Part shown: piece after piece, positions 3,807 through 37,977 of the stretch
Position numbering within the stretch: the first letter of the stretch is position 1
Layout of the letters: each line of letters begins with the position of its first letter
From: Dioscorea cayenensis subsp. rotundata
Taxonomy: Eukaryota; Streptophyta; Magnoliopsida; Dioscoreales; Dioscoreaceae
Reading direction: 5' to 3'
Assembly: GCF_009730915.1 (NCBI RefSeq)
Contig: NC_052489.1
Span: forward strand, 25,785,916 to 25,849,915
Length of the DNA: 64,000 bases
The notes under the pieces: model-generated
Databases searched by the model: none
The model's input: only the letters and a program-made list of their open reading frames with translations
What the model was told of the DNA's origin: nothing
Made by a program: the position numbers and the translations under genes

Positions 3807-6352
3807 ACCCAGATATTCATAAATGGTTCTCCCCATGGCTATTTCCGATGCAAAAGAGGTTTGAGACAAGGGGATCCTCTCTCCCCTCTTCTCTTCGCCC
3901 TTGCTACTGATGTGCTAAGTGCTATGTTCAAGCATGCTCTGCGTTCCAAAGTCCTAATTGGTATTTGACTTAATGATATTGAAAGCATCAGCCATCTTCA
4001 ATACGCAGATGACTTAATCATTTTTTTTTTCTGGAAGGCATGAAGACCTTCATATAATCAAGTTAATTCTCTATCTCTTTGAAGGTTCCTCAAGACTCTC
4101 GATCAATTATTAGAAAAGCTGTCTCTATTCTATGAATTATGGTTTCCAACCAAATCTTGCCTCTGTTATGATCTTAAACTGTAGTAGAGACTGTATTCCT
4201 ATAACATACCTTGAGGTCCCGCTTACTGGAAGACGACTGAGGCGCCAAGATTGGTCAAATCTCATAGGACTGATTCAATCTCGACTCACTTCTTGGACAA
4301 CAATTTACCTATCTCTTGGAGGACGTCTAACTCTTATCAACCCAGTCCTCTCCACAATTCCAATTTACTGGATGTCAGTTTTCAAACTGGTGATTCTTGA
4401 AATAGATAAGATCCGCAGAGACTTTCTTTGGAAAGGACCAGATATGGGATCTAAAGGAATTAGATTGGTTGCTTGGAAAAGAATATGTCGTCCTAAAAAT
4501 TTGGGAGGTTGGGGTATTATCAATCTTAAGGAATTTAATCGCGCACTTCTAGGGAAGTGGTGGTGGAAGATCGCAACAAACCCAATTAGTTGCTGGGCCA
4601 AAATAATCAACACCAACTACAACACTTTAATTTTAATCTTCCTGGCGCTCTGTTTCATCCAGCGCCCAGAAATAAATCTTTCTTCTGGCCAGGAGTTTAT
4701 GACTCCTTATCCTCTTTTCGTTTATGCTTTTCCAAATCTATTAATAACGGATCCAACACTTTTTGGTTTGACAAATGGTACAATGGACACTCGTTGAAGG
4801 ATCAATGGCCTAATCTCTTCAACGACTGTATCTATCCATGGATTTCTCTAAGGCAATTCTCTCTGAACATTAGTCACCCTCAAAGACTCTTTCACACAGC
4901 TTCAATAAATGATCTGTCTCCAATCTTGAGGTCTATATCGGCCAGTTCTTCGGACTAGGAGGACCTAAATATCTGATCTTTGGAAAAAAGTGGATCTTTC
5001 TCAGTTAGGTTCTTCTACAAGCTACTTATTGATGGAGGAGCTCGATGTCCACTCTACCCCCAATTTTGGAAAATTCACTCGCCTAGCAAAATCACGCTTT
5101 TTTGCTCGCTTGGGAAGATGAAATTCTTACACTCACAAACCTTTCCAAATTTGGACACAATCTTAACGCTATTGACACTTGTGTCCTATGCCACAGTGTA
5201 GACCTGTCCATGGGCCGTGCTGGTCCAGGTTTGGGCCGGGCTTCGTCCATAATTACTAAATTATAAGCTTGTCCAAACCCGGCCCGGCCCGGCCTGAAAA
5301 TCCGAGCCTTAACTTTTGCCAGAACACACCTAAATTTAATAACCTCTATCGAAGGCCCACCCAAATAGGTTTTCATCAAATAATATATAAGTTATAAAAA
5401 AATTAACAATAATATTAATATGTGAGTATGGCCAAATATTATTCTACAAAACACTTAAAAATTAAAATACCAAAAACAAATATTTAAAAAAAAATTCAAT
5501 TACAACAACTAAAATTCAAACCATTATAATCAATGGTAATCAACAATAAATATATATTATATAATATATAGAAAACTAATTAATAAATAATCAATGGCAA
5601 TTCAAACCATTATATATATAAGTATTATTTGTTGATAAATATCTTTAATAATTCGGGCCGGGCCGGGCTTTTAATAATGAAAACCAAACCCAGCTTGTTT
5701 TTAAAATGTGCTTCTTTTTTTGTCCAAGGCCCGGACATCGGGTCTTATATATTTGTCCAAGCCCTCCCATTTTTCAGACGGGCCTTCGGGCTTTGGCGGG
5801 TAGCCCGGCCCTTGGACATGTCTACCACAGTGCTTCAAAAACTGCGAACCACTTGTTTATTGATTGAGAATACACGGGCATATCTGGTTGGAAAGAAATA
5901 TATGCATTTTTAATTTGAATTCTTTACCTTTCTTTACTATTATCCGTAAAGTGTCTAACACACTCCTTTCTTGGTTTTCTACAACTTCTCAGGCTCATCA
6001 GCAATCTCTTTCTGAAGCCTCGCAAAGGATTAAGCGCTTTCTCGACTTCATGAACGCTAGAGTTGCAGATACCCCTGGCAATATAGAGCGCAACGCAGAT
6101 CAAGAGTAGTCCCCTTCTCCTTGTAGTCAAGACAGGTCTGTATCACTAGATGGTTGTTTTTGCCAGTCTTGCCGCCTTTTTCTTCTGTATCTCTTTTTCC
6201 TCTTCTTTCTTCCCTAGTATATTACTCACCTCTTATGAGGGTTTTGTTTTTCAGTCTATGATTGTCTATTTTCTTTTCTAATTGTCTCTGTTTGCTATAT
6301 TGTTTCTACTTTATTTTAATAAATCAGTGGTTTATTCATTTTATTTAAAAAA
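3807..6352 (+). mobile_element. LINE (L1-type non-LTR retrotransposon), 5'-truncated, dead
   Basis: The sequence starts inside the reverse transcriptase ([20 protein letters not shown] near 3850-3905). It continues with the catalytic YADD at 4002-4013, then the typical plant L1 block SLGGRLTLINPVLSTIPIYW and RRDFLWKG, and the WWWK segment near 4555. A zinc-binding RVT domain follows (TCVLCH near 5180). That last domain is split by a hAT MITE at 5199-5824. The reading resumes in frames ending with a stop at 6107-6109. Several stops and frameshifts make it non-functional. Compared with the minus-strand LINE at 10780-13140, the same subfamily, about 50 residues between the zinc domain and WLERN are missing. 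A short stem-loop (6326-6340) precedes the poly(A) tail. The 5' boundary is approximate, and no TSD was confirmed. Confidence 0.9.
5199..5824. mobile_element. hAT-type MITE with 8-bp TSD, inserted in the LINE
   Basis: The 626-bp element has 18-bp terminal inverted repeats, TAGACCTGTCCATGGGCC and the inverse of TAGACATGTCCAAGGGCC, matching at 16 positions. It is flanked by a perfect 8-bp duplication CCACAGTG (5191-5198 and 5825-5832). The TSD length assigns it to the hAT superfamily. GC-rich GGCCCGG/CCGGGCC subterminal repeats flank an AT-rich core. No transposase is coded, so it is non-autonomous. Removing it restores the VLCHSAS reading of the interrupted LINE zinc domain, which confirms both ends. 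Confidence 0.93.
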
Positions 6353-8897
6353 AATTCATTGTTGAGTTTACTTAGGTTATTGAAAACAATATATTTTAGT
6401 AAAATAAAAAAAATAAAAAAAGAAACATTACCAAGATGGTTCAACAATTTAAACTAAGAAATCTATATTTGAAGGTTTTCGGGGGAGACATAAATTTTTA
6501 AAAGGCAATCTTTAGAATAGTCTTTTTTTCTTGAGATGATTATAAGGCTTTGGATTATGGAATCATTAGGCTCTAATATGTTCCGGCCAAAAACAATTTT
6601 TTTTATTTTTTTTTTACAAAAGGGGGCAAATCTTTGATTGGTCAAAAGTCATGTGCAGAGTTTTCTCGCACACCCTCACCTTGAGTTATTGGGATCCGTA
6701 TTTCAAATCTAACCTCTGATTGAGTTTTTTCCTCTAGATGAGTTATGAATTCATGATTATCTTTTTCTTCCCCCAAGGGATCCAAGATAGTGCTTCTAAC
6801 TACCGAACCAAGTGGCTTTGACTCTTTTTTGTTTTTTTTTCCTTAATACTTACTAATAACCCAACAAATAAATTTGCCATGTAAAATAATTTGCTAAAGG
6901 AACATGATCAATAAAGAGTATCTTTTAATTATTCAATAAAAACTCCCAATGAAATGCCAATGATGGTAAAATCAAATAAAGTTGTTGGTGGGTTCGAATC
7001 CTTCCCTTGATATTATTGCTCATGTACTGTATATGTGGTCAAATACTATTCATTAATACTATTTTTAGACTTGAAATGGATTTTCTGTGGGAGAAATAAT
7101 GGTTTCATCTCTTCAAAATTGTAAAAGAGGGTGAAGGGATAAATGCATCTCAGAAAACAAATGTGAACGAGAATTATGAATCCTGATGACTTCCTTAACA
7201 AAGCCAAAAATATAGTCTAATCTCACCGAGTTGTCAAGATTCAATCTTAGACTTGGTCAAAAGGCTTTGTTGATCATGGGAGAACAAGGCACAATAAAAC
7301 TCATGTGATACATATGGGTCTCCTTTAATAATTTCTAATTAATTAGATTGTTGGGCATAAATATCATTACGTTGTTGATACTTGTAAATTGGACGGGGAA
7401 CAGGTTACAAATAATAATTTTGTCGTGAGAGTTCACTATAAACTTGTAGCATAAAATGGCTTGAGATGGCGGCACTTTGTTAAGTGACTATATTTTCACA
7501 GCAAAAGGCTTGAATTTGACAGTGAAATGGTGTGTGTATATATATATATATATATATCTTGATTAATTTTGAAAATATTAAAAAATAGACAAACATTTTT
7601 AACTGTCTGGTGAATATAATTTTTTAGTTTTTTTTTTTAAAAAAAATGGATAAATTATTTAAATTAAAAACAGAAATTCTTTAGTTTTATTGTATTTTTT
7701 CCTAATAAATATATGATTTATTTATTTTTATAAAAAACAAAAGATTGACCTTAATAAATCCGTATTAAGTGTTTGTTTTGTGTGATGGATTAAAGGAAAA
7801 AAAATGATTAAAAAGTCAATGAAGTGAAGTGAGTCTTAGTTTTTGGGTACCTTTTTACAATATAAATAAAATTGAGCAAGCAGATGGCACGGTACTACTA
7901 TTAAAAAATAGTAAAGATGTAAAGAAGTTGCTGCCTAGAATATAACTAATTAGCTAGCTTCCAGTAAGACTATTCTTCTTTAACTGCATGGGTGGCCACG
8001 TCTATTAGTTTATAAACTATTAAATCACATTAAAGAGCAATAAGCGTGTTAAGGTTGCGAAGTTTTAACAACATATTTACATTCTTTAATTAGTTTATTC
8101 ACACAATAAGAAAAAGAGCACATTATCTTAGCTAATATATTGGAAAACCGAACTTATTACCAGAAGCGAATGTATTTAGAGATTCATAAATAATTATAAG
8201 GTAAATAAACAGATATGAACATAAACGAAGACCAAATAAATCCTCAGTCAAAGGGAAAATATTGCCACATATTTTGCTGCAATAGGCAAAAGAAGACTAA
8301 AACTAGCAATATTCATATGGAACACGCTATATATATATCATTATATGTCTCTCTGCTAGTTGTCTGGTTCTGTTCATTGCATATGTGTTCTGGGATCAGG
8401 AGGACTAAATAAATATGTCAGGAAGTCAATTAAGGGATGTAGTACTTGATTGCTTAGGAAAGCGTGTTGAAGAACTCATAATTCGCCCCTCAACTGCGCC
8501 AGAGACTTTATGGGATAAATTACAGCCACATGTGGAAATAGAAGATGAATCATCTGAGAATATTCATAGATTTGATAGATTTAAAATATATGTGATGATG
8601 AATCATATGCGAACATTCGTAGATATGAAAACCATTGAATTTCAATCTAATAGTTGAGCATTATTTTATGTACAGTATTACTACTAGGCCAACACCAATG
8701 AAACTATAAGGGATGCATAGTTATTTAATCTGAACCGTTCAATCAATTTATGTACAGTAACTAAATAAATATGAACCGTCCAACCCTATTTCTACTAGAC
8801 CAACACCAACGAAACTATAACCCAAACAAAAATTAATTAACCCAACTAACCCTTCATTATGTCTCACTGTAGCAATTAGTTTGGTACTATGCTCACA
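6353..8897. other. AT-rich intergenic DNA with degraded repeats
   Basis: No gene is clear. A SINE-like remnant on minus lies around 6597-6820: its head reads AAGCCACTTGGTTCGGTAG on the minus strand, like the SINEs at 8953 and 9764, and it has a T-rich end. A tRNA B-box-like GGGTTCGAATCC is at about 6991. An 80-codon open frame at 8415-8657 on plus has no recognised family and no splice context, and is probably chance or transposon-derived. Around 8680-8825 a 22-bp segment containing CCAACACCAA and GAAACTATAA occurs twice. Confidence 0.4.
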
Positions 8898-8924: not shown

Positions 8925-8952
8925 ATGATGTTTATTTTATATATGAGGCTAA

Positions 8953-9119
8953 GCCAAAGCCACTTGGTTCAAATGGTTAGCAACACCAAAATAAGTCTCT
9001 GTGTGGCGTGCAGAATGGTGAGGATTCGAATCTTTGTTGGAGGAATTAACTCACAAGTGATGTCGCAACCATCTCACACGGCATAGAGACAGGCGCTTGT
9101 CGCCCTTTTAAAAAAAATT
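8953..9119 (+). mobile_element. tRNA-derived SINE with 13-bp TSD
   Basis: The 167-bp element is flanked by a perfect target-site duplication TATATGAGGCTAA (8940-8952 and 9120-9132). The head GCCAAAGCCACTTGGTTCAA leads into an A-box-like AAATGGTTAGC. A B-box-like GGATTCGAATC lies further in, both fitting an internal RNA polymerase III promoter. It ends in a short A-rich tail. A second copy of the same family lies at 9764-9926 in the opposite orientation. Confidence 0.85.
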
Positions 9120-9132
9120 TATATGAGGCTAA

Positions 9133-9252
9133 ATCTTTGGTCGTTAATTTTGGGAGGATGTTGGTTCTTTTTGTTCTTTTTTTTCCTTTCTGTAGTGTTC
9201 TGCTTTCCGGTGTTTGTTTCAATTGAAGTGATTTATCTATTTAAAAAAAAAA
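9133..9252 (+). mobile_element. Severely truncated LINE 3' end
   Basis: The T-rich trailer ends in AAGTGATTTATCTATTTAAA and a poly(A) run. It resembles the trailers of the LINEs ending at 6352 and 10780 and the fragments near 21800-22026 and 26850-26972. No coding sequence remains. Confidence 0.5.
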
Positions 9253-9763
9253 ATTCGGGAGAAATGAAAGAAAAAAAAGAGACTGTAAGAGAAGTACCAC
9301 TTTTTTAAAATGAAGAAAGTAATTTCACTTATAATATTTTTTGTATTCATTTGTCAGACCATGAGAATGAAATTAAAAAATTTAGATGTTTGGTGGATTT
9401 CTGTGAGTTTAAAAAAAAAATATTAAAGTAAGAGAAAGTTGGTTTTTATAGAATATCTTATTTCCTCCCACTTCAATAAAAATGTTATTGAAGTAGTTTT
9501 AGTTCTAAACTCACTTCACTCAATCGAGGGAAGTCGCATTTTCCCCCACTTCCTCCAAAATGAATGGTCCTTCAATGTCATTAATTAATTCTAACATTGT
9601 ATGTATAATGTAAGAGGTAACTTTTGACTATAGTGTCAATTTAATCCTAGATATATTTTAGAATGGAATAAAATGAACTTAATTTAAATTTAATATCGAT
9701 CATAAATGTTAAAACTTATAAAAAAAATTCTGATATTAAAATTTCCTTATGCTTATGCTGATT

Positions 9764-9926
9764 TGGGAAAAAGGACGACAAGCACATGTCTTTATAGCGT
9801 GTGAGTTGGTTGGGATATCACTTGTGAGTTAATTCATCCAACAAAAATTCAAACCCTCACCACTCCGAATACTACATGAAAAACTTATTTTGGTGTCACT
9901 AACCACTTAGACCAAGTGGCTTTGGC
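9764..9926 (-). mobile_element. tRNA-derived SINE, same family as 8953-9119, inverted
   Basis: Read on minus it starts GCCAAAGCCACTTGGTCTAA. It has an A-box-like AAGTGGTTAGTG and a diverged B-box (GGTTTGAAT), and ends in the family's CTTGTCGTCCTTTTT tail. A 9-bp duplication ATGCTGATT flanks it (9755-9763 and 9927-9935). Confidence 0.83.
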
Positions 9927-9935
9927 ATGCTGATT

Positions 9936-10779: not shown

Positions 10780-10782
<3 letters not shown>

Positions 10783-13140
10783 AATAGAGTGAATAAGTCA
10801 CTGCTTTATTAAAAAGAACAAAAGTGAAATAGACAAACCCTGAAACAAATAAAAGATAATAAAAAGAGTTACAAACTAAACGAGAAACTGAGAGCAGTCA
10901 TTAGAGGTGAAGCAAGAACAAGAACGGTTACCCAAAACAAGTACACAAAGCACATAAACATCAAAACAAGAAAAAGGAACAACTTAGAAAGCGAGGTCCA
11001 CCCTCTGGTATCTGAGGCTTCCTCAGCTAACATCAGGAATGAATCACTCCTGTGCGGAAGGCGTGGTCAACGCTCCGGCGCGCTCTTCTGATCTAGCGCC
11101 CAAGAAGTCAAGTGAGCGTCTGAGGTTCCGAATGGAGTCCTCTGGGAAGCAATGGTTAGGGTCTTTAGCTGCAGAGTGCCAAGCAAGTAACATATGAATA
11201 ATTTTGGAAATAACAAAAAAGGAGTCACGAGCATGCAAGTTAAAGACAAGACAATTTCGTTCAAGCCATAAATTCCAAAAGATGGTCCTTGAGAAGATCC
11301 CAAAAAGAACGAAGTTTGGTTTGTAAGGATGGAATACAGGAAGTCTAGACCTCAGCAAAGGTCTGAGGAAGGAAGTACAAACCTAGAACTTGCTTAAAGA
11401 AGTGCCAGATATAGTTGGAGAAATCACACTCAAGCAAGAGGTGTTCCACCAATTCTGAATTTCTATGGCACAAAACGCAGGTGTCCGTTGCACATTGGAA
11501 GTTGCAACCTCTTTTGACTAGATTAACCAAGGTTAGGATTTTGTCATCCCAAGCGAACCAACAAAAGAGAGTTATTTTGCTGGGGCAACCCACTTTCCAG
11601 AAATGAGAATAGAGGGGACTACGAGTACCACCGTCCAACAGAAATTGATAGAAGGATTTTACTGAAAACTTTCTAGTGCTATCTAAGGACAAGGTTCTCA
11701 TATCCTCTAATTCACTTTGACAATATGGAATTAAAGACAGGAAGTGTGAGATTTCTTCTAGTGTGGCTGTTTGGAATCAGGAGACTAAATTTCATTAGAG
11801 AAGAACCTTACAGTTAACCAAGGGGAACGACAATCATTGTAAAGGCCAGGACATAAATCTCTAGGTGTTCTACCGTTTAGCCAGTTGTCATGCCACAGTA
11901 GGGTAGAAGCACCATTCTTGACAATCTTCCAAGAACAAAATTTAAAAGAAGGTAACAAGAGTGTAATTCCAACCGAGAAGAAAGAGTTATTCCTCGGTGG
12001 TGTGTGGAATAATAGCCTCAATGAATCTCTACACAATTAATTGAAGTTAATGATTTTGAGCCAACAATAATTACTATCAGAAGTGATTTTCCACCACCAC
12101 TTTCTTAGGAGAGCCTTATTGAAGTCTTGAATGTTTAGGATGCCCCATGCCCATCCTCCCATGGCACGAGGTCGGCAAATCCTTTTCCAAGCGACAAGTC
12201 TCATCCCTTTGGGGCCCAAATCAGATCCTTTCCAAAGAAAGTCTCTACGGATTCTATCGATCTCATTAGAAACGACCAGATTGGTAATTTAAACATTGAC
12301 ATCTAGTAAATTGGAATTGAAGATAGGACCAAGTTTAGAAGAGTGAGTTGTCCGCCTAGAGAGTGATAACTCGCTTTCCAAGAAGTAAGTTTGGAGCGAA
12401 CCAATAAGATAAGTTTCAACCAATCTTGTCTCCTTGGTCTTCTTCCCGAGAGCTGGACCCCAAGTAGGTAGGAAGACAGTCCCTGAAGCAATTAAGAGTT
12501 GCAGCTGATATTACATTAGGGCAGAAGCCAAAATTGGTAGAATATAGACAATTTTTAGAGAAGTTGATAGTGAGTCCTGAGGATCCTTTTAAAGATATAG
12601 GATTAGTTTAATAATCTGAAGATCCTCCTGTTCACCTGCCGAAAAAATGATTAAATCATCCGCATATTGAAGATGGCAAATATTTCCAAATTGTCCCAAA
12701 GGAACCCCTAATAAAACTCTAAAGCGGAGCGTGTGTGTGAACATTGCACTTAGAGAATCTGCTGCTAAAGAAAATAGCAGGGGGAATAAGGGGCCACCTT
12801 GACGTAGACGGCGTTGGCAATGAATATAACCATGTAGAGATCCATTGATTAAGAGTCGGGCTTTGGTAGAACCAAGGATAATACAAATCTAAGAAATCCA
12901 TCGAGTGTCAAACCCACGAGCAGTTAAGACCTCAAAAAGAAAATTTCAATCAAGGGAGTCAAAAGCTTTTGCAAAATCAACCTTAAAAGCTAACCCTGGC
13001 AGTTTGCGCTTTTGAATATTGAAGATAAGCTCTTGCGCTGCAACTATATTATCCGCTATTCATCTCCCTTTAATGAAGGCCGATTGGGAATCATCAACTA
13101 AAACATCGATAACTCGGCTCAGTCTGTTATTATTATATTC
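10780..13140 (-). mobile_element. LINE (L1-type), 5'-truncated, dead
   Basis: Read on minus it enters reverse transcriptase at VLVDDSQSAFIKGR (near 13100). It continues through KVDFAKAFDSLDW, LRQGGPLFPLLFSLA and YADD (12655-12666), then SLGGQLTLLNLVLSSIPIYW. WWWK lies near 12090, and a zinc-binding RVT domain with CVLCH and HLLLECDFSNYIW near 11400-11480. The final reading ends at 11044. Scattered stops and frame changes make it inactive. It is the same subfamily as the plus-strand LINE at 3807-6352, with similar C-terminal ends (WLERN, SLDFLGAR). A perfect stem-loop AGTGA-CTTAT-TCACT (10788-10802, minus) closes the 3' trailer. Confidence 0.9.
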
Positions 13141-13517: not shown

Positions 13518-13520
<3 letters not shown>

Positions 13521-13597: not shown

Positions 13598-13601
<4 letters not shown>

Positions 13602-16066: not shown

Positions 16067-17824
16067 TTAATTAAGGTCATTAAAAACTCCATTGATGCAC
16101 TTAGAAACGTGGAAAGCCAAATCATCATCAGTTGCTGATGGATCCATCATGGAGTAGTCCATGTTCATTCCATGCCAAGGTGGAGAGAGACATGAATAGG
16201 AAAATATATCCTCAATGTCAGTCCCAGGATTAGGCTCCCAAAACTCTTCATTATTTACCATTGACTCCACTGTTCTTTGATGATCAATGGATACTAGAGA
16301 GTTCTTATAATTTCCATCATGGTTATCATCAGTTGGTTCTGATCCCATAAATGATATCTGATAAGGTGCAGACACATGTTGGTAGTTCAATGTTGAAGAA
16401 GAGCTGGCTGGGGTTTGCATCTTATGAACTTCTTCATGGTGATTGGCTTGCTGATGTGCTGAGTAAAGGGATGACAGCATTGGCCATTCCTTTTTGAAGA
16501 TCATATTGGAATTTGATTCAAAGCTAAGCAAGTTTGCTTCAATGGGGAGAAGGGGAACTTGTGGATTTATTATGGGATTAGTCATGGGTTTGCATGTATG
16601 ATGCCCAGTGTAAGTGGCCAGGAACAGAGGTTGGTCAATATTGCAGACCTTCTCTTCAACCTGCTTGGTTGCTTGACATCCTTGATCTTTGTAAGTGCAT
16701 CTATAATAGCTTCTGCAAAACAATACACACCATCAATTAGTTTTCCCTTAAAGAACATATGTTTATGACTAATTTTCATTAAATAAAATTTTGTATTGGC
16801 TATCTAATTAACAACCTCTATATATGAAGCATGATATATATATATATATACACAGTATTATATATATATATATATATATATGGATGCTCATTTCTCTTTT
16901 GAAGGGCTTAATTGATATGCATATATCCTGGTGTGTTCTTCTTATTTTCAATAAACAGTGGTTTATCCACTTTTTTTTTGGAATAATAGACGACAAGCGC
17001 CCTTTTTTATGAATAGAAACAAAATACTAAACAGTATTGGAATCCGGATGTACATTATATGTACAGTATGAAAATAATATAGGAATCCCGGATGAACAGT
17101 GGTCTATCCACTTTTTTCCAAAAAAAAAATTGATATGCATATATATTCCAACCAAACCTTGAGAGTTTGGTTTTCTGGATGTTCTTCTGGCCATACTTCC
17201 TCCATTGGTAACCATCATCATGTGGAGAATAAGTGACATTAGTACATGAATTCATACTCTTCCTGTAATTAAAAGAAAAGAAATTACAAATAGCCAGCCA
17301 CATGCAGTGTTAATTGTACTCTAGTTTTAATTACTATATATCTAAGAGCTCCCCCATGACATATATTCATATATATATATATATATACATATATCTATGC
17401 TATATATAAAAAAGACAGCAAGAGATCAAAGATGATCCATCAGAAAAACTCACAATTCTTTATTACAAGATCCAGTTGCAGCTGGTAGAGTACTCTTAAT
17501 CTCATCTGAAACCACAGTACTCCCTTGATCACTGAAACTGCAACCTGATGAGCTTGCCTCGTGATCATGATTAAAATCATTGGGGTACTTGAGGATGGAC
17601 AGACTCATTTCTAAAGCTTGCAGTCCCTTCTCAAAAAGGACCTCAGGAGGCTCTCCCTGCGGTTCACCACCGAACAAGAACATGAACTGAAGCAGTTTCA
17701 TGATCTCATATCCTCTGGTGACCTCATATATGGCCATCTCATCTTTGTTACAACTCATGTTCTTTCTCTTCATCATGGCTACTTTCTCCATGGCAAACTC
17801 ACTGTGGTTTCCACTCAAGGTCAT
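16067..17824 (-). CDS. WRKY transcription factor, group III (copy 2)
   Basis: Exons on minus: 17824-17454, 17262-17158 and 16712-16067, joining to 373 aa with GT-AG introns in the same phases as copies 1 and 3. WRKYGQK is at residues 144-150. Zinc ligands C164, C171, H197 and C199 give C-X6-C-X25-H-X-C. The N-terminal helix reads EMAIYEVTRGYEIMKLLQFM. This is the longest copy: exon 3 carries an extra Ser/His/Asn-rich stretch (about 230-300) before the shared CLSPPWHGMNMDY motif. LLSFESN is kept. The region before the domain reads SDQGST, as in copy 3. A second in-frame Met (MEKVAM) follows the chosen start. Intron 2 holds two copies of a LINE-tail hairpin (16957-16971 and 17098-17112). The DNA-binding role is inferred from the family. 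No disabling change is seen. Confidence 0.93.
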
Positions 17825-24407: not shown

Positions 24408-25678
24408 TTAGAAGCTTGGAAAGCCTTCATGAAGGGGATCAAATCCAAAGGAATCCATCTGCAAGTAGTCCAAGCTCATCACTTCCCAAGGGGGTGACAT
24501 ACATGCACTCAATGAGAAATCCTCAATGGTAGAGTTAGGTACGGCCTCCAAACAGTACTGTTCATTGTTTACCACTGATCCTATTGCTGTTTGATCAATG
24601 ATCACATTTTGAAGGTCAACTCTTTCTAGGTCAGAGTCTTGTTGATCAGTTGTTGAGGCCTTGAGCATTGCCCTCTCATGGTAGCAGAAGAACTTATTGG
24701 CATTTGATTCAAAGCTAAACAAGTTTGGTTCTACTGGAAGAAGGGGATCTTGTGTGATTTGTGGAGTGATGATCATGGGATTATTATTAGTTTTGCAGAT
24801 GTGCTGCTCATAGTAAGTGACCAAGAACAAAGGTGGATCATTGTTGTCCTTCTGTTGAACATGCTTCGTTGCTGGGCACCCTTCATCTTTGTAAGTGCAT
24901 CTATAATAGCTCCTAATTAAAAAGAAACACATTCATATTATAAACTGTTAAAGCATAAGAAAAATAAAAAATAATTACAAAAACCAAACCAATATTGAAT
25001 GCTATATGATCCATTTCTCTTGTAATATGGGACTAAAAACCCTTCCATATTTATCATGTTCTTCTGTACTGCTTAAGAGGGGATTGATATAGATCTATAC
25101 ATTCATAACAAACCTTGCAAGCTTGGACTTTTGGAGGTTCTTCTGCCCATACTTCCTCCACTGGTGACCATCATCATGAGGAGCATAAGTAACTTTAGTC
25201 CATGGATCCATGGTCTTCCTAAATATCATGATTAATAAAGGAAAAAAAAAAGAATTAAGCAGTGTAATTAATTAAGCAAATATAACTGATCATCTAAATA
25301 AAGATCAAAGAATTAAACAACTTACAATCTCTGTTGACGTTCCCTTTTACCACATACAATACTAGCACTTGTGGGAATCTTGACCTCTTCTGGAGCCTCA
25401 GTACTCCCTTGATCACTGAAAGAAGCTGAGCTGGTCTCGGAGATAATCTGCTCTCTAGAAGCCTGTGTCTGTGTGCATGTATTGCCGGACTTCTTCAACA
25501 TGGACAAAGCCATTGATAAAGCTTGCAAGACCTCCTCCAAGAGAATTCCAACCAACTCCAACTGTGGTTCGCCTTTTGGTATGAAAGTTTGAAGCCTTGC
25601 AGCAAGCTTATATCCTCTGGTGATCTCTTGAATGGCAAGCTCTTGATATAGAACTGATCTCTCTATGATTTCATGCAT
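24408..25678 (-). CDS. WRKY transcription factor, group III (copy 3)
   Basis: Exons on minus: 25678-25326, 25218-25114 and 24912-24408, joining to 320 aa. Introns are GT-AG in the same phases as the other copies. WRKYGQK is at residues 138-144. Zinc ligands C158, C165, H190 and C192 give C-X6-C-X24-H-X-C. Before the domain is DPWTKVTYAPHDDGHQ, with His where copies 1 and 2 have Tyr. The N-terminal helix reads ELAIQEITRGYKLAARLQTF. SDQGST is shared with copy 2. The C-terminal motifs PNLFSFESN and SPPWEVMSLDY match copy 1 most closely. Exon 3 ends with GFPSF*, against copy 1 GFPCF*, so copies 1 and 3 look like the more recent duplicates. The frame is fully open, so it is likely functional. Confidence 0.93.
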
Positions 25679-25789: not shown

Positions 25790-27334
25790 GTGGGTGAAAT
25801 TTATATCCAAATTAATGTTTCGGAAAAGTAGGAGGATAGTGCTGAGGAAGCTGGGAAGGTGAGTGAAACACATGGCGGTTGTCTTTATTATGGGCACGCG
25901 GATATGAAGAAGTAGTTGCTGAAATAAGCCTTTCATGTTGGCTTGTCAAACATACTGTGGAAATGATGGATTGATTATTATGTACAAGTTGCTATTTCTC
26001 GTCTTCTAAGTCTTTGTCCATCCTTAGATCGGTCCTCATTGTGGCAAAATTTCCCATGTGAAATTAAGGGTGTGTATCAAAGCAAAATATTCAACTTTAT
26101 AATTAAAAAATTAAGGATTTAGAAGAGTAACATTTAAATAAGTATCTAAATTATTGCTACAGTAAAAAAGCTAATTTATTTATCGGTGGAAGATTGAAAA
26201 TTCAATTTTTTTTTTAACACAATAGGTGAGAATTTATAGTTTAATTAAAAGAATTTGAGTTCGAAACTTCTCAAACACAATGCAAAAAAATAAATAAATA
26301 AATAAATATTTGTTGCCAATTTGTCAAAAAAAATTATAGTTATTCAAATAAATAAATAAATATAAATATCTAAAGTTAATTAGAGATGGTAAATAATTGT
26401 TAATACAATGCAAATTTTCACATGATGAGCTGATGTGGAGAAGAATGAGACGATGGCAATCAACTCTGCAAACATTTTTCCCTGATAATTTTCTCTTGCA
26501 AGTTGAAGGATATTGAAGAGACTGTCAAGAGAAATTTAATTTTCTATCCAAATAAAATGGAACAATGATCAAACAAATAAGAATGTGAAAAACGTTGAGC
26601 GGTATGGAGACAATCTTTCCATCCCTTTATCTTTTCAATTCTTTTTTCTAGTTAAAATACAATGCCATGATGATTAAGCCATCCCCTTACTTTTGCCTTC
26701 CCCTTCAAATAAAGTACAGTGACATGATCATTAGAATAAATTAATCTAGTCTTTACCTTGCTTTTTATTTTCTTATAAAATAAATAAACCAAAATTTAAA
26801 TTAAAATGAAAACTTAAAGTGGTCGTTGTTGAAGTGTGCTTCATCCCTAATAATTGCTTTCTGTATGGGTTTGTTCTTTTCTTTTGTCTTCTTGTTTGTT
26901 TTTTTGTTTGGTTTGTACATATATTTTTTTTTAATAAATCAGTGATTTATCTATTTTATTAAAAAAAAATTAAATGAGAATAGTACAAAAACTCTCAATA
27001 AAATAAAAACAAAATAAAATATAAAAGGAGCCATTCTAATCACCAAAAATGCTTAAATAATCAGATAAATAGAGGATGAAAAAAAAATAGACTCATAAGA
27101 ATTAATTCAAATTAAGAATTATCCGTTTGTGGAAACAACTACAAGATAATTTTAATATTTTAAGGTCTTAGATGGTCACGACCAACCCAAAAGAAGAGCC
27201 TAACAAAGTTCATGCTGCAGTTGATGTAGACACAGTAACCTCTACCATTTTTATTTAATGGCTATAGTTCTTACATTTAATTCAAATATAAATAAATAAA
27301 TAAATAAAGTATAACGTCTACTACAATTAAATTT

Positions 27335-27540
27335 GTAGTGTATGTTCAATGGTATGACATTAAAGTGTAAGGGGAGGTCATGGGTTCAAATCTCTCCCAC
27401 CACAGATCGCTTCTATATCGTTTCACATACATCGCTTACTCGGGATTTCTATATTATTCTCATCATCGTATATATATCAGATATCCAGGGCTCAAGATCT
27501 TTGTTTAATCTTATTTCTATTCATAAAAAAGGCGTTTATC
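27335..27540 (+). mobile_element. Probable tRNA-derived SINE
   Basis: An A-box-like TTCAATGGTATGAC is followed about 35 bp later by a B-box-like GGGTTCAAATC. The downstream body ends in a short A run near 27530. TSD was not found, so the ends are approximate. It is a different family from the SINE pair at 8953 and 9764. Confidence 0.5.
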
Positions 27541-28444
27541 GTTTATTATTAAAATTGGTGGTAGTGTAGCTGGCAGAGGAGAGGAGAATGATAATTACAT
27601 TGAGGGGCTCATGATTAGATGTCTTCTCTCTTGGACTGAAACAAGTAATTTGACGTTGTTAATTTGTTATTAATTGATCATTACTCTAGTAGGCTTAGCT
27701 TTTTACACCATCTATATTTTAATTAATTTTGAATAAATAATTTTGGAAACACACGACATTATTTGGTATTGTAAAGATTGCATGATTATATATATATACA
27801 TATTTTAGAACCATCCTTATTACAACAGAAGAGTGGTAATCATTTTTCTCTTAAATAAAAAATTAAGAATTTAACTTTATCCCAGTGTCATGGTTGAAGA
27901 TTCATTGCTTTTTCACACACACACACACATATATATATATACCCAATGCCATGGTTGAGGGTTCATTGCTTATCCATATATATATATATATATATATATT
28001 CTTTATATAGAATATATATATATATATATTATACTCCGTCATGCAAATGAAGTCCAAAAGAAATAAAAATTCTTAAAAGGAATATCAAAATTTAAACCCT
28101 TATTTTTTTTTATATATTAATATAAACAGGTGAAGGAATGAAACCCTTAACTTTATAATAATAAATAAATAAAATACCAACTCTATTATTGAAGAAATAG
28201 TCAACCCCTTAATAAATTTATTATATTTTTTTCCCATTTGTATCATCTCCTATTTCATTAGATTAAAAAATATAATTTGACATTTAACCTACATGGTTTA
28301 AGATATATACAATGATCTACACATTTCATTTCCATGTCTTTTGGTTTAATGGTCTTTATTAGTTAGGTTTAATGGTCTTCATAACTAATAAAGTACCAAT
28401 AGAGTTCAAAATTAAAAAAACTGTTAATAAGATTTTTTTTTTTT

Positions 28445-28680
28445 TTTTCCAAAGCAACAAGCACTATATACATTAGAGGTGTGCGCACAAAGTAGGAATT
28501 AATCGTCCAATCCACACACCCTCAGCCGAAAACGAGGGGATTACACTGCTAGCCGACACTCATAACTAGTGACCCGTTATCATTATTATTTCTAATGAGT
28601 CTTGAACTCAAAACCTTTTAAATATTTCGCTATTATTTTTCATAATAAGACTAAATACCTTTAGACAGTTAGCCCTTTGG
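28445..28680 (-). mobile_element. SINE-like element, family of 37729-37977
   Basis: Read on minus it starts GGGCTAACTGTCTAAAGGTA, matching the head GGGCTTTTGGTCTAATGGTA of the SINE at 37729-37977. A B-box-like GAGTTCAAGAC follows. Both share a late GTGCGCAC-containing segment and end at an A-rich tail (T-run 28432-28450 on plus). Flanks TAATAAG and TAGTAAG may be a worn TSD. Confidence 0.55.
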
Positions 28681-29549
28681 TAGTAAGTATTTTTACAACT
28701 ATTTGGTTGAACTATAACTATTAACTATTTGGCTGAACTGTAACTATTAACATACACACATAATATATACACTAATCATGCAAAGGAACAACATGTTGAA
28801 TGGGACTTGAGGTTTATCATCTATATAAAATACATAAGAAATGGTGATCACCAAACTTTGAAGAGATTGGCGAACAAAGCATCCAGAAACCATCCAAAGA
28901 TAGCTGAAGTCAGCAGCCATTTTAATTTTCATTTACTTCATTAATTTGAGGACCCCAAACAATTAAAAGAAAAGGATTTTCAAAAAAGAATAGCTGGCAC
29001 TCTGCAATTCTTTGTTAGTGGGAATTGGTGGAACTAGTCTTGAGCTTAAAAAGCAAAAAAAACAAAAAAGCAGGGGGGAATAAAAAGGGTAAAAATATAT
29101 ATACAGGCATATGTGGATAGCATCCAAGAGAACAAATGTGAATGCACAAGGTGGACAAAAATAACTTCCTTGACCAAGTCGAAAGTATTTTCCATGATTA
29201 GATTGCATGGGTTCAAACTTGATCAATAAATCTTGGTGACCAAGAAAGAAAGCACACACTTTTTCGTACATGCGGTATATACCTCTATAAAAGTTTAGTT
29301 GCATGACTGTTATCTCTATATTTAATGTTTTAGTGGTTTAACTTTTTTATTTAAAAAAACTACTTTAATTTTAAAAAATCATGAAAACTTAAAAAAAAAA
29401 AAAAAGAGATCAAATACATATGAACCTTTAGGGGCATTCATATGTTATAACTTCAACACCGTTGTTCAAAACTCAAAAGCCTTCATATGTACATCAATAA
29501 CATTAGCACCTACTTCGTCAACACGGATCTCATTGATGGTAATATCTAG

Positions 29550-30738
29550 TTGACTGATTTGGTTGACGATATGAACTGGAATTTCAATCATTTTCAGTCC
29601 CTCCTAAGTCATCAACTTTGTCTTCCCAACATAACTATGAGCCACATTGATCCTTGATCATAATAATACTTGGGTGTGGCAGCTAGGATCCAGCAGTAAC
29701 AGTATTGTTACTAAGTTTACATCTTTCTAAGCAATGCAACTCTGCTGAGTATAATTGGCAAGGATGGAAAAATCTTTGGAAATTGGATGCTGCAATTAGA
29801 GCTAAGTTCTTTATGTAGCTTTTACTTCATGGTAAGGTTAAAACCTTAGACTTTCTAAAGGCTCTAAACATGGTCTCCAATGCTTGCAATGTCTTATGTG
29901 GAATGCACAGGGAAAATATCAATCATCTCTTTAACACATGCTCCAAAATTCAATTGTTTTGGAGAAAAATTGAAGAGATCACAAAAACTCAATTTACTTC
30001 GGGGCATAGCATCAATACTGGTATATAGTTGGAAAATATTGGCACTACTAAGAATCAATGGGTGGCCTCTATAATTGTTACTAATGTGTGGAATATATGG
30101 AAGGCTAAATGTAATCTCGTCTTCAAAGACCGACGGTTGACCCTCTTTGGATTTCCACCTCCGTTGCGAATTCAGTGAACGAATACACCAAAGATCCAAA
30201 TTATCAAAGGGAGGTCTTCTTTCTCAATATTTTTGACAGTTACTCCTGTCAATGCTACCTCTTTACTGATGCATCTTGGATTCCAGATAGTCAAACTGGA
30301 GATAGTGGCTTCTTTTTTGTTAATGCTCACAAAAAACATTGTGGTTGCAGGAAGCTCAAGAATTGTTGCACGATATGCTCTTGAAGCTGAACTAATTGCT
30401 ATGGATGTTAGGCTCAAAATTGCTACGGATTACCAAAGAGTAGCTGATTTGAAGCAGACCTATAGCTTAAGTATTACTGACGTTGAAGCTATTCCCCGTG
30501 ATTGGCACATCCTTGCGCTAGCAATGCATGGGAGAACTTGTCATGTGATTTCTTTGTTTCACTAAGGGAGAGACCTTCCCAGATGGCTGATGAAATGTGC
30601 CAAAGCATCTGGTTTTTGCTTTTATTAATTTCTTTGTAGCAGGCTCTTACATCCTTCTTTACTTTCTTGTCAAGTTATTTTAGTCTAGTTTCTTTTTCCT
30701 GATAAAATAGCTACATGGTAGCTCTTTTTTTTTTAAAA
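29550..30738 (+). mobile_element. LINE 3' end with zinc-RVT and RNase H-like domains, dead
   Basis: The first recognisable part is a reverse-transcriptase zinc-binding domain. It contains WKLDAAIRAKFF, VKTLDFLKALNMVS, then C-X2-C (NVLCGMH) and NHLFNTCSKIQLFWRKIEE (29760-29990). An RNase H-like domain follows: FTDASW with the catalytic-type Asp near 30265, and after a frameshift ALEAELIAMDVRL near 30385. A stop ends the frame at 30565. Internal stops and at least one frameshift make it dead. The 3' trailer closes with a 6-bp stem AGCTAC-ATG-GTAGCT (30709-30723) and the tail. It belongs to a different LINE lineage from the two near the WRKY genes. Confidence 0.8.
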
Positions 30739-32169
30739 AAAAAGAGAGAATAAATCTCAAATTTATTAAAATAAATAAATAACAATACAAAGAGAAAAAC
30801 GCATGTCCACTAGGGATGAAAATATAAACCAACAACTATAAAAGTACAGGGCCTGGAACATGCCAACACAAATAGAGAAAAAATGACAACGAAACTGAGA
30901 TCACGACCCAGGACTTAGGGAAGCACTCTTTCTCGAGTGAGAAAGATAGTGTGAAGTCACATGCTTGCAATCGAGTCTAAAACCTATGTATCAAGGTCGT
31001 GTTTGTCTCGCATAGAAGACCCTGAGAAATGAATGCTTCTTTTCACTACTTCAGCTGCTTACTCCATCTTTTGCCTTTTGGCTGCAGGAACAGCAAAAAC
31101 CCAAAAAAGAAACATATGACTAATTTTCAAAATAACAAAAGCAAGAGGTAATGATTTGAAATTGAAATTGCATTCATTTTTTGCTAGCCAAATGTGCCAC
31201 ATGATTGCTTTGGCTACGATAGTCCATGCGGCTCTATTCGCCGAACTTAGGTTACAAACCCAGTATTTCCACAATTCCTCCAAGAACAATGGGGTTTTAG
31301 GTTATCTAAGGATTCTTGCAAAGTGAAGCCAAATGTTCCTTGCTAAGGAATAGTGGATAAAGACGTGGTTTGAAGTCTTTGTGTCAATATGACATAGGAC
31401 ATAGGTAGATGTTAGTAGCCGGTTGCATCTCCTCAAAGACAGGTTCTCGAGTGTGAGGATTTCGTTGTTCCAGGTCAACCAGTTGAAAAGATTAACCTTT
31501 AGAGGGCAACCTTTTTGAGCAAGGTTGTAGTTATAGCATAAAGGAAACCCCCATCAATCAAGAAGAGGTAAAATGAGGACACTGTGGACTTACCATTCGG
31601 AGTTAGACCAAACTTTGCTATCCTGTCTAGAAGGGTTCATTGACAAGATACAATTGCAAGTGTTAGTCAAGAAGGGTCTTGCTCAAACGGATTTAGTTAC
31701 AGAAAAGGTGGAAGAAGGCCTTTGACTAAACCTCGTGGACATTGCGATTGAGTGAAGAGCTCAAGCCAAAGATCCTTTGATGCTCGTCCAAGGAACCATT
31801 TATCGTGCCAGAAAAGGATAAAGGTGTTGTAACCGATAACATAAGTGATACATATCCTGGATGCAACGACCGAACACTGGATGCCTTGCCAAAAGAAGGA
31901 TTTCTTGTTGTGGTGCAAGTGATGGAAGTTCCAGATTGGGGTATTGATAAGTGAATGTTATTTAATATCATTTTATACACTTATTTGGCGTGTATTAAAG
32001 TATTCTTATGGAAGATGATACTAAACATGGTGAAAATTGTATTTTTCAGGTATCGGGAAACGCTAAAGGACGAGAGAGAGAGAGAGAGAGAGAAAAGAAG
32101 CAATCAAGAGCCAAAACAAGGAAGATGGAATTCTCTCGGCATCAACAAATGAAGAACATGCGAGACTGA

Positions 32170-32545
32170 ACCACTTACGGGCACTTTATGGTTGTGCTTA
32201 CAGCCATAAGCCTCTTCCAGAGAATTTATGGGCATGTTGATGCTTGTAAGAAGGAGTATAAGAATCAACAGAAGGACTTGCGGGCATGATTTACGCCTGT
32301 AAGTCAGACTATAAGGGTTGTCCCAAGGAGCTTACGAGGAGCAACATACACTCAAAAGGTGGTCACAAGCACAATCCAAAGAAGATTACGGCCCATCGCT
32401 TACGGCCGTAAGCTAGGCCACAACACTAAGACAAAAGACCTTACGGACAGAACTTACAGTCGTAAGGTGTCCTGTAAGGCACATGATCCATCATTTTCAG
32501 GTCCTTACGACCTCGTTCTTACTCCCATAAACAATCCGTAAGTGG
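32170..32545. repeat. Clustered CTTACGG-CCGTAAG palindromes in LTR U3
   Basis: Eight or more CTTACG/CGTAAG half-sites lie in about 375 bp, several paired as palindromes. The best is GCTTACGGCCGTAAGC (32398-32413). They lie just upstream of the LTR TATA box, the position of promoter or enhancer elements. Confidence 0.75.
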
Positions 32546-32550
32546 CTAGG

Positions 32551-32558
32551 TATAAAAG
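32551..32558 (+). promoter_or_regulatory. TATA box of the solo LTR
   Basis: TATAAAAG stands 606 bp into the LTR, directly after the palindrome cluster. It is a plausible core promoter of the former element that could drive flanking DNA. Confidence 0.6.
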
Positions 32559-35500
32559 ATTATGAGGGTTTTGAATCTATCTTTAGACGATCAAGCTTTG
32601 GGAAAGAAAAAGGGGTTTTCTACAGATCTTTGAGGGTGAATCATCAAGGAAAAAAAGCTAATCCACTTTAGAGGAAGAAGACTAGAGCCGTCGAGGAGCA
32701 CCATGGCGACATTTGTGGAAGATAAGGGGGAAGTCCTTCAGCAATCTCAAGAAGCGCAATTGGAAAGGGGTTTTAATGCTTTTAATGATTCTTGTAATCT
32801 CTTTTGAATTATATGATTGTTCTCGCTTAATGGAGAACTAATTTTGTAAGTGTTTGGGCATAAATGAACTCTAGGGTTAAATTTGATTAACATTGGTTGT
32901 GGATCTTTCATGCTTTACTTTGATTATTAATTGCAATTCTTTACTTTTTAATTCAATCGCTTATCCTTATTGTCTTGAATGCTATTGAAGCGAAAGCACT
33001 AGTTTCATGTATGATGTGCTTGTGTGACAAGTCGAGAGACCCACTTAGCATAAGCAAACTGCAATTGTAAGGGATTTGTCATTTGTGAGTAAGCCTAGAG
33101 ATATGGTACTTTAGAGTCAAGAATTCTCCTCCCACAATCCTACCAAGTGAATTGGCAAGCAATTCCGTACTCTATGCAATCATAAGGAGTTGATCTAAAG
33201 AGTGATCTTATTTCTACTTTGTATGGGATTAGGGGTAATCACATTAACAGAAGGGTTGTCTACACTTTGAATTCTTGTTGATTCTTGTTAAGATTTCATA
33301 AAATGCAATACGATCGTGGGATTATCTGTATCAGCAATGTAACAAATAAGTTACTATTCATCTTGAGAGAGAGGATAGTATTCTTTAGGATTTCTCTCGG
33401 TTCAATTAGGATTGCTAACTTACAACCGTTGTCCAGTAAGACACCCCGTCTATACCCAAGCACCCCATCTCTCTCTCTCTCTCTCTTACTTATCCATATT
33501 CATTTCAGTGCTTTTGATTTTTATTTTCTTTTATTTTGTTTTCACATCACACAATTTCGAATAAACTAGTTTTCGGACTAAGGACTAGTACTAATAGACT
33601 CAATTTTCCTAAAAGTTATTACAAGATTGGCACATACACTTGCGTCCCTATCAAGTATCCTAAAAGTTGTTAAACTAGTTGATTTTAGAATCGCACTAGT
33701 CACCACTTGATAGGAACTTCCACCACCACTTACCAAGGAGAGCATTGTTAAAACCCTTAAGGTTAACTATCCCCCAACAACCTTGTTCACGAGGCTTACA
33801 AATTCTATCCCAACACAGATGCATTTGGGTTTCTCTATTTCGAGGTCATGCCATAGAAAATCTCTTCTAATTTAGACGATTGGCTTTCTGACCCAAGTGG
33901 CGAGTTTATAAATGGGCATCCAGTGGGTGAGAATGGATGTTAGCGCTGAGTTAATCAAAGTGATTCTACCACTTAAAAAGAGAAAATTCGTTTTCCAGGA
34001 TAGCAGTCTTGCTCTAATGCCTAAGATGAGAATTCTCTAGTCTTGGCATCTAGGCCTTCTACCAAAGATGGGGATGCCAAGGTAGGTTAGGGGAAGACTG
34101 CCCGCAAAGCAATTAAGAGTGGTTAGGGATACTAGGTCTGGAGATTGTCCCCCACTTTATTGAGTAAAATTTGGTTTTATGAAAGTTGATGGACAACCCA
34201 AAAATGCCTTCGAATAAACTAAATATCAGTTTGATTATTCTCAAGTCATCAATGCCCCCAATTGACAAAATGATTAGGTTATCCACGTACTATTGGTGAC
34301 AGTGTTTCTAGTATTGTTCTAAGAGTACCCTATAAAAGATCCCAGAAGATAGGGCATGGGTGAACATTGAGCTTAAGGTAACAGCAACTAGAACAAAAAG
34401 CAAGAGGGAGAGACCTTGTATGAGCCCTCGTTGATATCGAACATATCCGGAAAGGGTTATGTTGATAAGAATATTTACTCTAAAGGTTTCTAGAAGGTTT
34501 TTGACCTAGCTAATCCAGCGGGGACCAAAACCTTAGCTTGAGAGGCATTAGAGCAAGAACTCACAATCGACCAAATTGAAAGCCTTTGTAAAATTGACCT
34601 TTATGATGTTGCATGTAACACCTTTTTTTTGCAAGTTGAAAATTAGTTCCTCCACTACAACTATGTTGTCCATTATTTGTCTGGCCCTTATAAATGCCAA
34701 TTACGGGGCATCTATAAGAAGGTTGATTTGCTTTCCTAGCTTATTAGCTAGGCCCTGCTTTTACCTTTAACGTTCGGCCTATTAGCCGAATTAAAACCTC
34801 CCTCAAAATCATCTCCAAGGTCCCCTCATAAAAGTCCTTAGAGAGATTGAAAAGATCTTAACCCACCACATTCCAGTATTTTTGGAAGAAGAAAACAAGG
34901 AAACCATCTGGCTTGAGTGTTGTGTCTACTTCTAGTTCGAAAGTGGTTGTTTTAACTTCTTCCAATGTGAATAGTGCCTCTAGTGGGGGTAGGTTTGGCC
35001 TGGTTTTGTAAGAGAGGAAAGACCAATTAAATTTGAATCTGAATGGTTTTTCGGTTCTAGATCAGAAGTAAGAAGTAAAAGCTTTTTCGATCTCCTTGTC
35101 ACCGGTAAAGTCGGTATTATCGTGTTTAACTTGGTGGATGTAATTTCAGTTTTGTCGCATGTTTGCCACTAAGTGAAAAATTTTGGTATTTCCATCTCCT
35201 TCCTTCAACCAAATTGCACAAACTCTTTGCTTCTAGTAAATTTCTTCTTAGCGCATCAGGGTGTCTAGAGACTGTGAAAGTTCTATCGCTTGTGCCTGCT
35301 CATCTGGGGAGAAGACTCAGTGCTCATGGATTTGATCCAAGCTATCTAATTTTTGCTAGATCTCTAGTTTGCACTCTTTGATGGACCTAAAGCTTATTTT
35401 AGCCCAATTGGATAGCTTTTGTTTAAGTTAGGCACCACTCCTGAATGAGCATATCAAAGTTCTCAAAAGAACACCATGGTCGCTCAAATTTGAAGTATCA

Positions 35501-37728: not shown

Positions 37729-37977
37729 TTCTTGTTCCTTTGTTTTTTTTACAAAATAGATAAGCCACTTATTAACGACGTGCGCACCACCGGGAATTGA
37801 TTGTCTAGTTCGTGCACACTCATCTAGTGGACTTAAAAATTAGGTTGCAAACCTGCTCTCACAACCGGGGATCCTTTTTGACACCACTGTATTGAATCAT
37901 AAGCAATGCAAATCCCTACAAGACACCTTTCATAGTGGAATAGACAGACAGTACCATTAGACCAAAAGCCCTCTTGT
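37729..37977 (-). mobile_element. Intact SINE with 13-bp TSD and LINE-like 3' tail
   Basis: The 249-bp element lies between perfect duplications ATTATTGCTATCT (37716-37728 and 37978-37990). On minus it starts ACAAGAGGGCTTTTGGTCTA, with the A-box-like TGGTCTAATGGTA. The 3' end reads AATAAGTGGCTTATCTATTT followed by an A-rich tail. That end matches the trailers of the LINEs in this window, including the stem-loop (37755-37769), which suggests it used the LINE machinery. Confidence 0.83.

Follow-up and report, generated by a model that had tools for sequence, protein, structure and literature searches.

What do the retroposons of a plant genome hold in common at their 3' ends, and what might recognize it? 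The question is raised by a 64-kb stretch of Dioscorea cayenensis subsp. rotundata (NC_052489.1, positions 25,785,916 to 25,849,915; hereafter the window, meaning the whole stretch of DNA that was analyzed), in which short hairpins precede the A-tails of long and short interspersed nuclear elements (LINEs and SINEs). The window looks like plant nuclear DNA, with WRKY-domain genes (PF03106, Pfam), a Ty1/copia element with RVT_2 and rve domains (Pfam), and decayed LINEs that carry reverse transcriptase (RT) and zf-RVT domains. An initial annotation had proposed six hairpins with a kept loop of the form YYTAT as an RT recognition signal shared by LINEs, truncated LINE tails and one SINE, and all six agree with the sequence letter for letter. 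We analyzed 17 tails, of which 16 are independent, as two of them (E and F, see below) are counted once. The hairpins lie beside A-tails, their stems covary, and they are present on both LINE and SINE insertions flanked by target-site duplications. Moreover, the sharing with SINEs is broader than had been claimed, as the hairpin is carried in the window by LINEs, by LINE tails and by SINEs of three or more groups. Given the position, covariation and sharing of the hairpin, we consider that it is probably, although by no means certainly, a 3' recognition element for the reverse transcriptase of this plant's L1-type LINEs.

To evaluate how far the motif exceeds chance, it was counted in the window and in 100 dinucleotide shuffles. 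The bare motif (loop YYTAT, stem of at least 4 bp, G-U pairs allowed) occurred 39 times, versus 24.0 +/- 4.8 in the shuffles (0/100 as high), and 16 times with a stem of at least 5 bp, versus 9.4 (3/100 as high); by itself, it is mildly over chance. The motif is far over chance where an A-run follows or AATAAA precedes, as it was followed by A6 within 25 nt in five cases versus 0.73, directly preceded by AATAAA in five versus 0.32, and accompanied by both in three versus 0.00, counts that no shuffle matched. In agreement with this, a hairpin precedes 13 of the 220 A-runs of at least six nucleotides in the window, compared with 29 of 3311 in shuffles, and eight of these 13 are tails described below (A, H, T1, F, S, C, L and X1).

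Three of the carriers are LINEs, linked to each other by collinear protein matches:

LINE A, 3747..6354 (+): decayed; RT and C-terminal region, 3' untranslated region (UTR), hairpin and A8 tail; protein matches to B and C
Hairpin A, 6326..6340 (+): AGTGG-TTTAT-TCATT, with G-U pairs in the stem; preceded by AATAAATC
LINE B, 10783..13080 (-): RT (PF00078, 1.4e-9), zf-RVT (PF13966, 3.8e-19), 3' UTR and hairpin; the 5' limit is that of the protein match
Hairpin B, 10788..10802 (-): AGTGA-CTTAT-TCACT; preceded by AATAAAGC
LINE C, 30725..34700 (-): decayed; RT region, zf-RVT (PF13966, 1.2e-8) and A10 tail
Hairpin C, 30745..30759 (-): TGAGA-TTTAT-TCTCT, four inner pairs; preceded by AATAAATT

In each of them the hairpin is found about 220-245 nt past the last protein match. 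The last 34 nt are 79% (A-B), 76% (A-C) and 76% (B-C) identical, whereas four aligned blocks upstream of them show 31-51% identity; further upstream, A and B show 70% identity in their coding DNA (604 columns). The initial annotation placed an A-tail after each of its hairpins, which is not the case for hairpin B: here, CTATTC, AAAA and a TA microsatellite follow, without a clean A-tail. The RT domain was detected in a fragment of LINE B, and assigned to A and C by protein match to B; zf-RVT was not found in the three LINE A fragments given to Pfam. A zf-RVT domain C-terminal to the RT is usual in plant L1s, and we take LINEs A, B and C to be L1-type from knowledge of plant LINEs, not from an RT tree. 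LINE C may extend further 5', to an endonuclease-like start recognized by eye only at 36099-36224, within which Pfam gave no match; in the nine fragments examined for an APE endonuclease, eight of them from the LINE C side, Pfam found none.

Insertions were also sought by a scan blind to hairpins, which called a target-site duplication of at least 12 nt located 45-700 nt upstream of an A-run of at least six. It returned five sites, versus 0.45 per window in shuffles; its reach does not extend to LINEs of great length or to elements whose duplications are shorter or decayed. All three credible retroposons among the five, namely LINE tail E/F and the SINEs T1 and S, carry the hairpin. The remaining two sites, both without a hairpin, were judged not to be credible retroposons: 43915 lies in a tandem duplication of the Ty1/copia element, and 15519, with a 12-bp duplication, is at chance level. 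The E/F locus is composed of a LINE end and of a SINE, X1, inserted in it, with a fuller relative of this SINE, X2, elsewhere in the window:

LINE tail E/F, 16927..17129 (+): LINE end only; 17-bp target-site duplication AATTGATATGCATATAT; later split by SINE X1
Hairpin E, 16957..16971 (+): AGTGG-TTTAT-CCACT
Hairpin F, 17098..17112 (+): AGTGG-TCTAT-CCACT, copy of E
SINE X1, 16971..17097 (-): 5'-truncated; hairpin 16988-17002 GGGCG-CTTGT-CGTCT, then ATTATTCC and A9
SINE X2, 27335..27568 (+): 8-bp flanking repeats GTAGTGTA and B-box-like GGGTTCAAATC, both by eye
X2 end, hairpin 27530-27544 (+): AGGCG-TTTAT-CGTTT, then ATTATT and AAAA

The E/F insertion, in which just the terminal portion of the LINE up to the A-tail is retained, is probably intronic, as it is located between exon matches of a WRKY gene. 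At this locus, 23 nt including the hairpin are repeated with one mismatch, flanking an antisense SINE piece that matches 27441-27550 and terminates with a hairpin and A-run of its own. Most simply, SINE X1 inserted within the hairpin of the LINE and duplicated it as its target site, so that E and F represent one tail. Hence, the sites at 16957 and 17098 are both real, as reported, but the 23-nt direct repeat makes them one event and rules out two independent tails; 3' transduction could also be discarded, since E has no A-tail and the middle piece is an antisense SINE end. The loop of F, TCTAT, is one change away from that of E and contains TCT. Between X1 and X2 the loops differ (CTTGT versus TTTAT), as do the two outer pairs (G-C versus G-U, and G-U versus A-U), in each case on one side, so that the helix is kept.

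The further SINE and SINE-like ends have the following features, all but S being additional, like X1 and X2, to the initial annotation, and with a loop CTTGT or TTTAT in these additional ends:

SINE S, 37729..37977 (-): 249 bp; perfect 13-bp target-site duplication AGATAGCAATAAT
S end, hairpin 37755-37769 (-): AGTGG-CTTAT-CTATT, then TTGT and A8
SINE T1, 8940..9132 (+): perfect 13-bp target-site duplication TATATGAGGCTAA; A- and B-box-like sequences by eye
T1 end, hairpin 9091-9105 (+): AGGCG-CTTGT-CGCCC, four pairs, then TTTT and A8
SINE T2, 9755..9935 (-): 82% to T1; flanking repeat AATCAGCAT by eye
T2 end, hairpin 9773-9787 (-): ATGTG-CTTGT-CGTCC, then TTTTTCCC; three pairs only, beside the loop
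SINE-like element L, 28433..28685 (-): 5' limit approximate; hairpin 28452-28466 AGTG-CTTGT-TGCT, four pairs; A16 tail

Every SINE end has a stem of three to five pairs and a YTTRT loop, and what families T and X have in common with the LINEs is structure more than sequence. SINE S combines its duplication with an A-box match at +14 and a B-box match at +80, each box pattern having 12-13 occurrences in the whole window; the duplication of T1 was measured, and the tRNA-SINE features of X2, T2 and L, including the status of L as an element with a SINE-like plan, were assigned by eye. The tail of S, the SINE of the initial annotation, matches the LINE models weakly when the whole window is searched, but it is supported in tests restricted to tails: its score was reached by two of 9754 null A-runs, and it aligns to D, A and E better than all 500 letter shuffles, with 1/500 shuffles as good against J, 2/500 against G, 23/500 against C and 63/500 against B. 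It is plausible, from these alignments, that S captured a LINE tail. ARAGORN found no tRNA genes in the window; Rfam gave no match at gathering score in the window, and near T1 and S chance-level matches only. As a separate observation, the word CACCTCTWATG has only three occurrences in the window, one in the 3' UTR of LINE A (6227, +), one in that of LINE B (10909, -) and one close to where element L ends (28481, -), and is a possible second block common to LINE and SINE.

In addition to the sites first reported, further LINE tails were found, among them three marginal or degraded ones:

LINE tail D, 26842..26969 (+): 5' limit approximate; no clear duplication; 88% over 50 nt to the LINE A tail
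Hairpin D, 26941-26955 (+): AGTGA-TTTAT-CTATT, A-C mismatch adjoining the loop
LINE tail G, 21800..22026 (+): 5' limit unknown; hairpin 22000-22014 AGTGG-TTTAT-CCATC, then TTTTTCC and A5
LINE tail J, 9120..9253 (+): 5' limit unknown; hairpin 9227-9241 AGTGA-TTTAT-CTATT, A-C mismatch adjoining the loop, then T and A11
Tail H, marginal, 7691..7737 (+): hairpin 7712-7726 ATGA-TTTAT-TTAT, four pairs; preceded by AATAAATA
Tail I, degraded, 29332..29359 (+): AGTGG-TTTAA-CTTTT
Tail K, degraded, 7628..7670 (-): hairpin position 7645-7659 AATAA-TTTAT-CCATT; two inner pairs lost

Mismatched duplications were looked for around A, D, G, H, I and J, and none was convincing. At 8940-9253, SINE T1 stands directly 5' of LINE tail J, into which it may have jumped. 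Overall, the stem has five pairs in seven of the 17 tails, four in eight and three in two (K and T2). The loop is indeed kept, as first proposed, but YTTRT describes it better than YYTAT, fitting 15 of the 17 tails, with F (TCTAT) and I (TTTAA) as exceptions. When all 1024 pentamer loops followed by an A-run were counted, before T and X had been recognized as SINEs, CTTGT came first with four cases, three of them being T1, X1 and L, and the fourth (53944) belonging to no recognized tail; TTTAT had three, tied with TTTGT, TTTTA and TTTTT. From the start of the loop to the first A4 run, the distance is 11-20 nt in 15 of the 16 tails, T2 having no such run.

The initial annotation also held that stem bases change in matched pairs, and this was borne out beyond both shuffle and slide controls. 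In the first nine tails, with E and F both counted, 91.1% of the cells were paired and the covariation score was 0.517 versus 0.345 (6/500 shuffles as high); in 13 tails, the values were 89.2% and 0.790 versus 0.366 (0/500). When all 16 independent tails were taken together, with the degraded I, K and T2 among them, 85.0% of the cells were paired versus 66.6 +/- 3.8, the score was 0.695 versus 0.332, and 14 cells were changed on two sides versus 6.7, none of which was reached in 500 shuffles; as the shuffles do not remove relatedness among tails, these figures are not probabilities. Sliding the 3' arm by one to three columns lowered pairing to 40.0-62.5%, and the signal was gone. Leaving out G, H and L, which hairpin searches had found, 86.2% of the cells remained paired versus 68.6%, with a score of 0.649 versus 0.321 (0/500); in this set, J, I and K came from a sequence matrix of the hairpin, while A, B, C, E and S, first pointed out for their hairpins, also stand on protein matches or duplications. 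The covariation signal sits in the cells paired, the two-sided cells and the score. Among the changes, G-C gives way to A-U in the pair adjoining the loop, LINE C has A-U in place of U-A, and the SINEs T and X have C-G where the LINEs have G-C.

A covariance model, which had been suggested as a check, was built from A, B and C and used to search the window, in which it found tails D (E-value 3.4e-4) and E (5.5e-4), followed by G and H (both 0.17) and F (2.0), all of these E-values, as those below, being rough. A five-tail model gave 0.028 for G, and a model of sequence alone 3.1e-5 for D, 1.2e-3 for E, 0.44 for H, 0.49 for G, 0.64 for F and 2.1 for S. Minimum-energy folding of 48-nt pieces of nine tails, with T, X, L and J not among them, showed that the stem holds in B, C (about half), E and F, and in the inner part of G.

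Several results weigh against the hairpin as a recognition element. SINE S is absent from the list of the A/B/C model up to an E-value of 10, and reached only 8.4 with the five-tail model. Moreover, the stem term brought no clear gain in retrieval, since the model of sequence alone did better for D, F and S and worse for E, G and H. The folds of D, H and S lacked the stem, as did the minimum-energy fold of A, where pair probabilities are still 0.30-0.75. The stem itself is incomplete in many tails: the pair or pairs adjoining the loop are missing in D, J and K, the middle pair in I, the two outer pairs in T2, and the outermost pair in C, G, H, L and T1. The number of pairs with two-sided change was three versus about three in shuffles, being reached by 388, 440 and 399 of 500 shuffles in the 13-tail set, the 16-tail set and the set without G, H and L, respectively, and further pair types were only moderately over shuffles (6, 52 and 21/500 as high). 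Five of the 13 A-runs preceded by a hairpin belong to no described tail (7797, 53967, 30318, 6840 and 6830, the last two having one hairpin in common). In addition, the loop class was broadened from YYTAT to YYTRT after T1 had been seen, so that T1 is not an independent test of it; family X, which came up as a repeat, is one. Compared with solved structures, the RT fragment gave weak matches, the best being 8gh6_A (E-value 0.0028); chains of 8gh6 and 8ibw, which we take to be R2-like, outrank L1 ORF2p (0.23), and L1 clade membership is therefore not established. Finally, the evidence comes from one 64-kb window and 16 tails, and the LINEs are all decayed, with no active pair known.

Could the hairpin be a by-product of mRNA 3' end formation instead? 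In six of the tails (A, B, C, D, E and H), AATAAA stands directly 5' of the hairpin, and the signal, a downstream element and the cleavage site could form the 3' end of the LINE mRNA, with the hairpin as an accompaniment or an aid to polyadenylation. A related form of this explanation has AATAAA pairing with the TTTAT loop, so that two exclusive hairpins would switch the signal; AATAAA:TTTATT pairing of 6-7 bp without mismatch is present in A (with one G-U), C, D, E and H, SINE S has an equivalent ATAAG:CTTAT of 5 bp, and 75.8% of the cells are paired (16/500 shuffles as high), an undercount, as E is out of register in that alignment. This alternative hairpin, which covaries less than the stem first reported (score 0.198 versus 0.517 in the same nine tails), was ranked lower, and an H-type pseudoknot of both pairings, considered by reasoning only, is sterically impossible, with no loop left between the stems. 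SINEs are transcribed by Pol III, which weighs against a polyadenylation origin, and no AATAAA stands upstream of the hairpin in tails G, J and L or in the SINEs T and X. We thus regard polyadenylation as unlikely to account for the hairpin; AATAAA likely has that role in the LINE mRNA in addition to the role of the hairpin, and not instead of it. Transcript ending or stability would be another function unrelated to the RT, with the hairpin and a T-run resembling a Pol III terminator in the SINEs, or with the U-run pairing with the A-tail. Tails E/F, G, K, T1 and T2 do have a T-run of at least four right after the hairpin, as does C after one C, and in the fold of D an upstream T-run and AATAAA pair with the downstream TTTATT and the A-tail. 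Nevertheless, the T-run of T1 and E/F precedes the A-tail and belongs to the copied element, and B, J, L, X1 and X2 keep the hairpin without T4 between loop and A-run, which leaves this explanation very improbable.

It is also conceivable that the tails are alike by descent alone, from a few master elements, with the SINE hairpins due to chance or old capture and plant L1s relaxed in their needs, requiring the A-tail only. The relatedness that the shuffles leave in the pair counts is in line with this, and so are the 63 and 23 of 500 letter shuffles that align to LINEs B and C as well as the S tail does. The last 34 nt of LINEs A, B and C, however, are far more alike than the aligned blocks upstream of them, two-sided stem changes separate the LINE and SINE groups, and slid stems lose the signal; we judge common descent improbable as the whole explanation. 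Altogether, recognition of the hairpin by the RT of the LINEs is the reading that we favor, its inferred parts being binding by the LINE protein, a role in priming and one enzyme serving all these SINEs. Under this reading, the 3' end of the RNA would consist of a 4-5 bp stem whose sequence is free, a loop of the form YTTRT, a spacer that is short and often T-rich, and the A-tail; the LINE ORF2 protein would bind the stem-loop and set the A-tail on the nicked target, where target-primed reverse transcription would start, and tRNA-type SINEs with an equivalent hairpin (S, T, X and perhaps L) would be copied in trans. We put forward more tentatively, as somewhat less than an even chance, that in this plant structure (a free stem, the YTTRT loop and a distance of about 15 nt from the A-tail), and not shared sequence, links an L1-type LINE with several SINE families that have no sequence relationship. 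If so, plant partner pairs would have been missed because they were sought by sequence, and A-tailed plant L1s would be stringent, not relaxed. A fixed loop with a free stem could serve as a search rule for pairing SINEs with partner LINEs in any plant genome, and the hairpin, being short and mutable, as a target on which priming could be tested in vitro.

As to the surroundings, the window holds three related minus-strand WRKY-type genes (1548-2367, 16067-17323 and 24408-25271), the first and third with the Pfam WRKY domain and the second assigned by protein match to those two. The Ty1/copia element contains a tandem duplication of 296 bp with 97% identity (43366-43956), and 45453-59115 holds several kb of diverged direct repeats (about 70-86%). 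A 227-aa open frame at 59186-59869 (-) matches no Pfam family above the cut-off. Imperfect palindromes at 20022-20282 and 20469-20671, about 70% identical to their own reverse complements, are perhaps foldback elements. Relatives of the RT could not be confirmed in viral_contigs or genome_contigs, and two exact tail patterns had no match in viral_contigs.

How, then, does this hairpin compare with known systems? The closest likeness is to the monocot L1 lineage 1a (LINE1-1_ZM) of maize and sorghum described by Ohshima, in which a 3' hairpin common to LINE and SINEs shows compensatory changes, with a UCU loop, a 3' flanking CGAG and about 50 nt of shared LINE/SINE sequence; divergence there is 0.144 in the last 45 nt versus 0.570 in the whole element (PMC3747384). 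The 3' end of LINE1-1 is shared by ZmSINE2 and ZmSINE3 of maize (PMC2774510), and a list of 2013 had no more than three SINE/LINE pairs for plants (PMC3747384). As in that lineage, a plant LINE and tRNA-type SINEs here have a 3' hairpin with compensatory stem changes in common. Unlike in that lineage, the loop is YTTRT and not UCU, and the SINEs T and X resemble the LINEs mainly in structure, loop and spacing; CGAG is absent from the flank in all 17 tails. A 37-bp motif, the Angio-domain, is reviewed for the 3' ends of many angiosperm SINEs (PMC9033089). Among stringent-type LINEs, UnaL2 has a tail of TGTAA repeats and SART1 a poly(A) tail after the terminal stem-loop (PMC3747384), and in zebrafish L2-clade LINEs the LINE protein binds the stem-loops, whose stem and loop both matter in assays (PMC4176376). 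The present tails resemble UnaL2, ZfL2-1, ZfL2-2 and SART1 in having a terminal stem-loop followed by a simple tail, and the conserved terminal stem-loop with compensatory changes typical of stringent pairs is found here too; they differ in clade and loop, and in that the need for the stem-loop was established by experiment in those systems, while our case is built on sequence analysis. For human L1, which is A-tailed, and Alu, 3' stem-loops have been proposed that would also match in structure rather than in sequence (PMC5135761), a likeness with the window, although the human stem has 8-10 bp, a bulge and a loop of 5-7, compared with 4-5 bp and no bulge here. As the literature compared is open-licence only, we make no claim that the YTTRT loop class is unpublished. 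Judged by its sequence, the hairpin of this window is best placed as one of the Ohshima kind, with another loop and another flank, reaching SINEs with which the LINEs have no common sequence.

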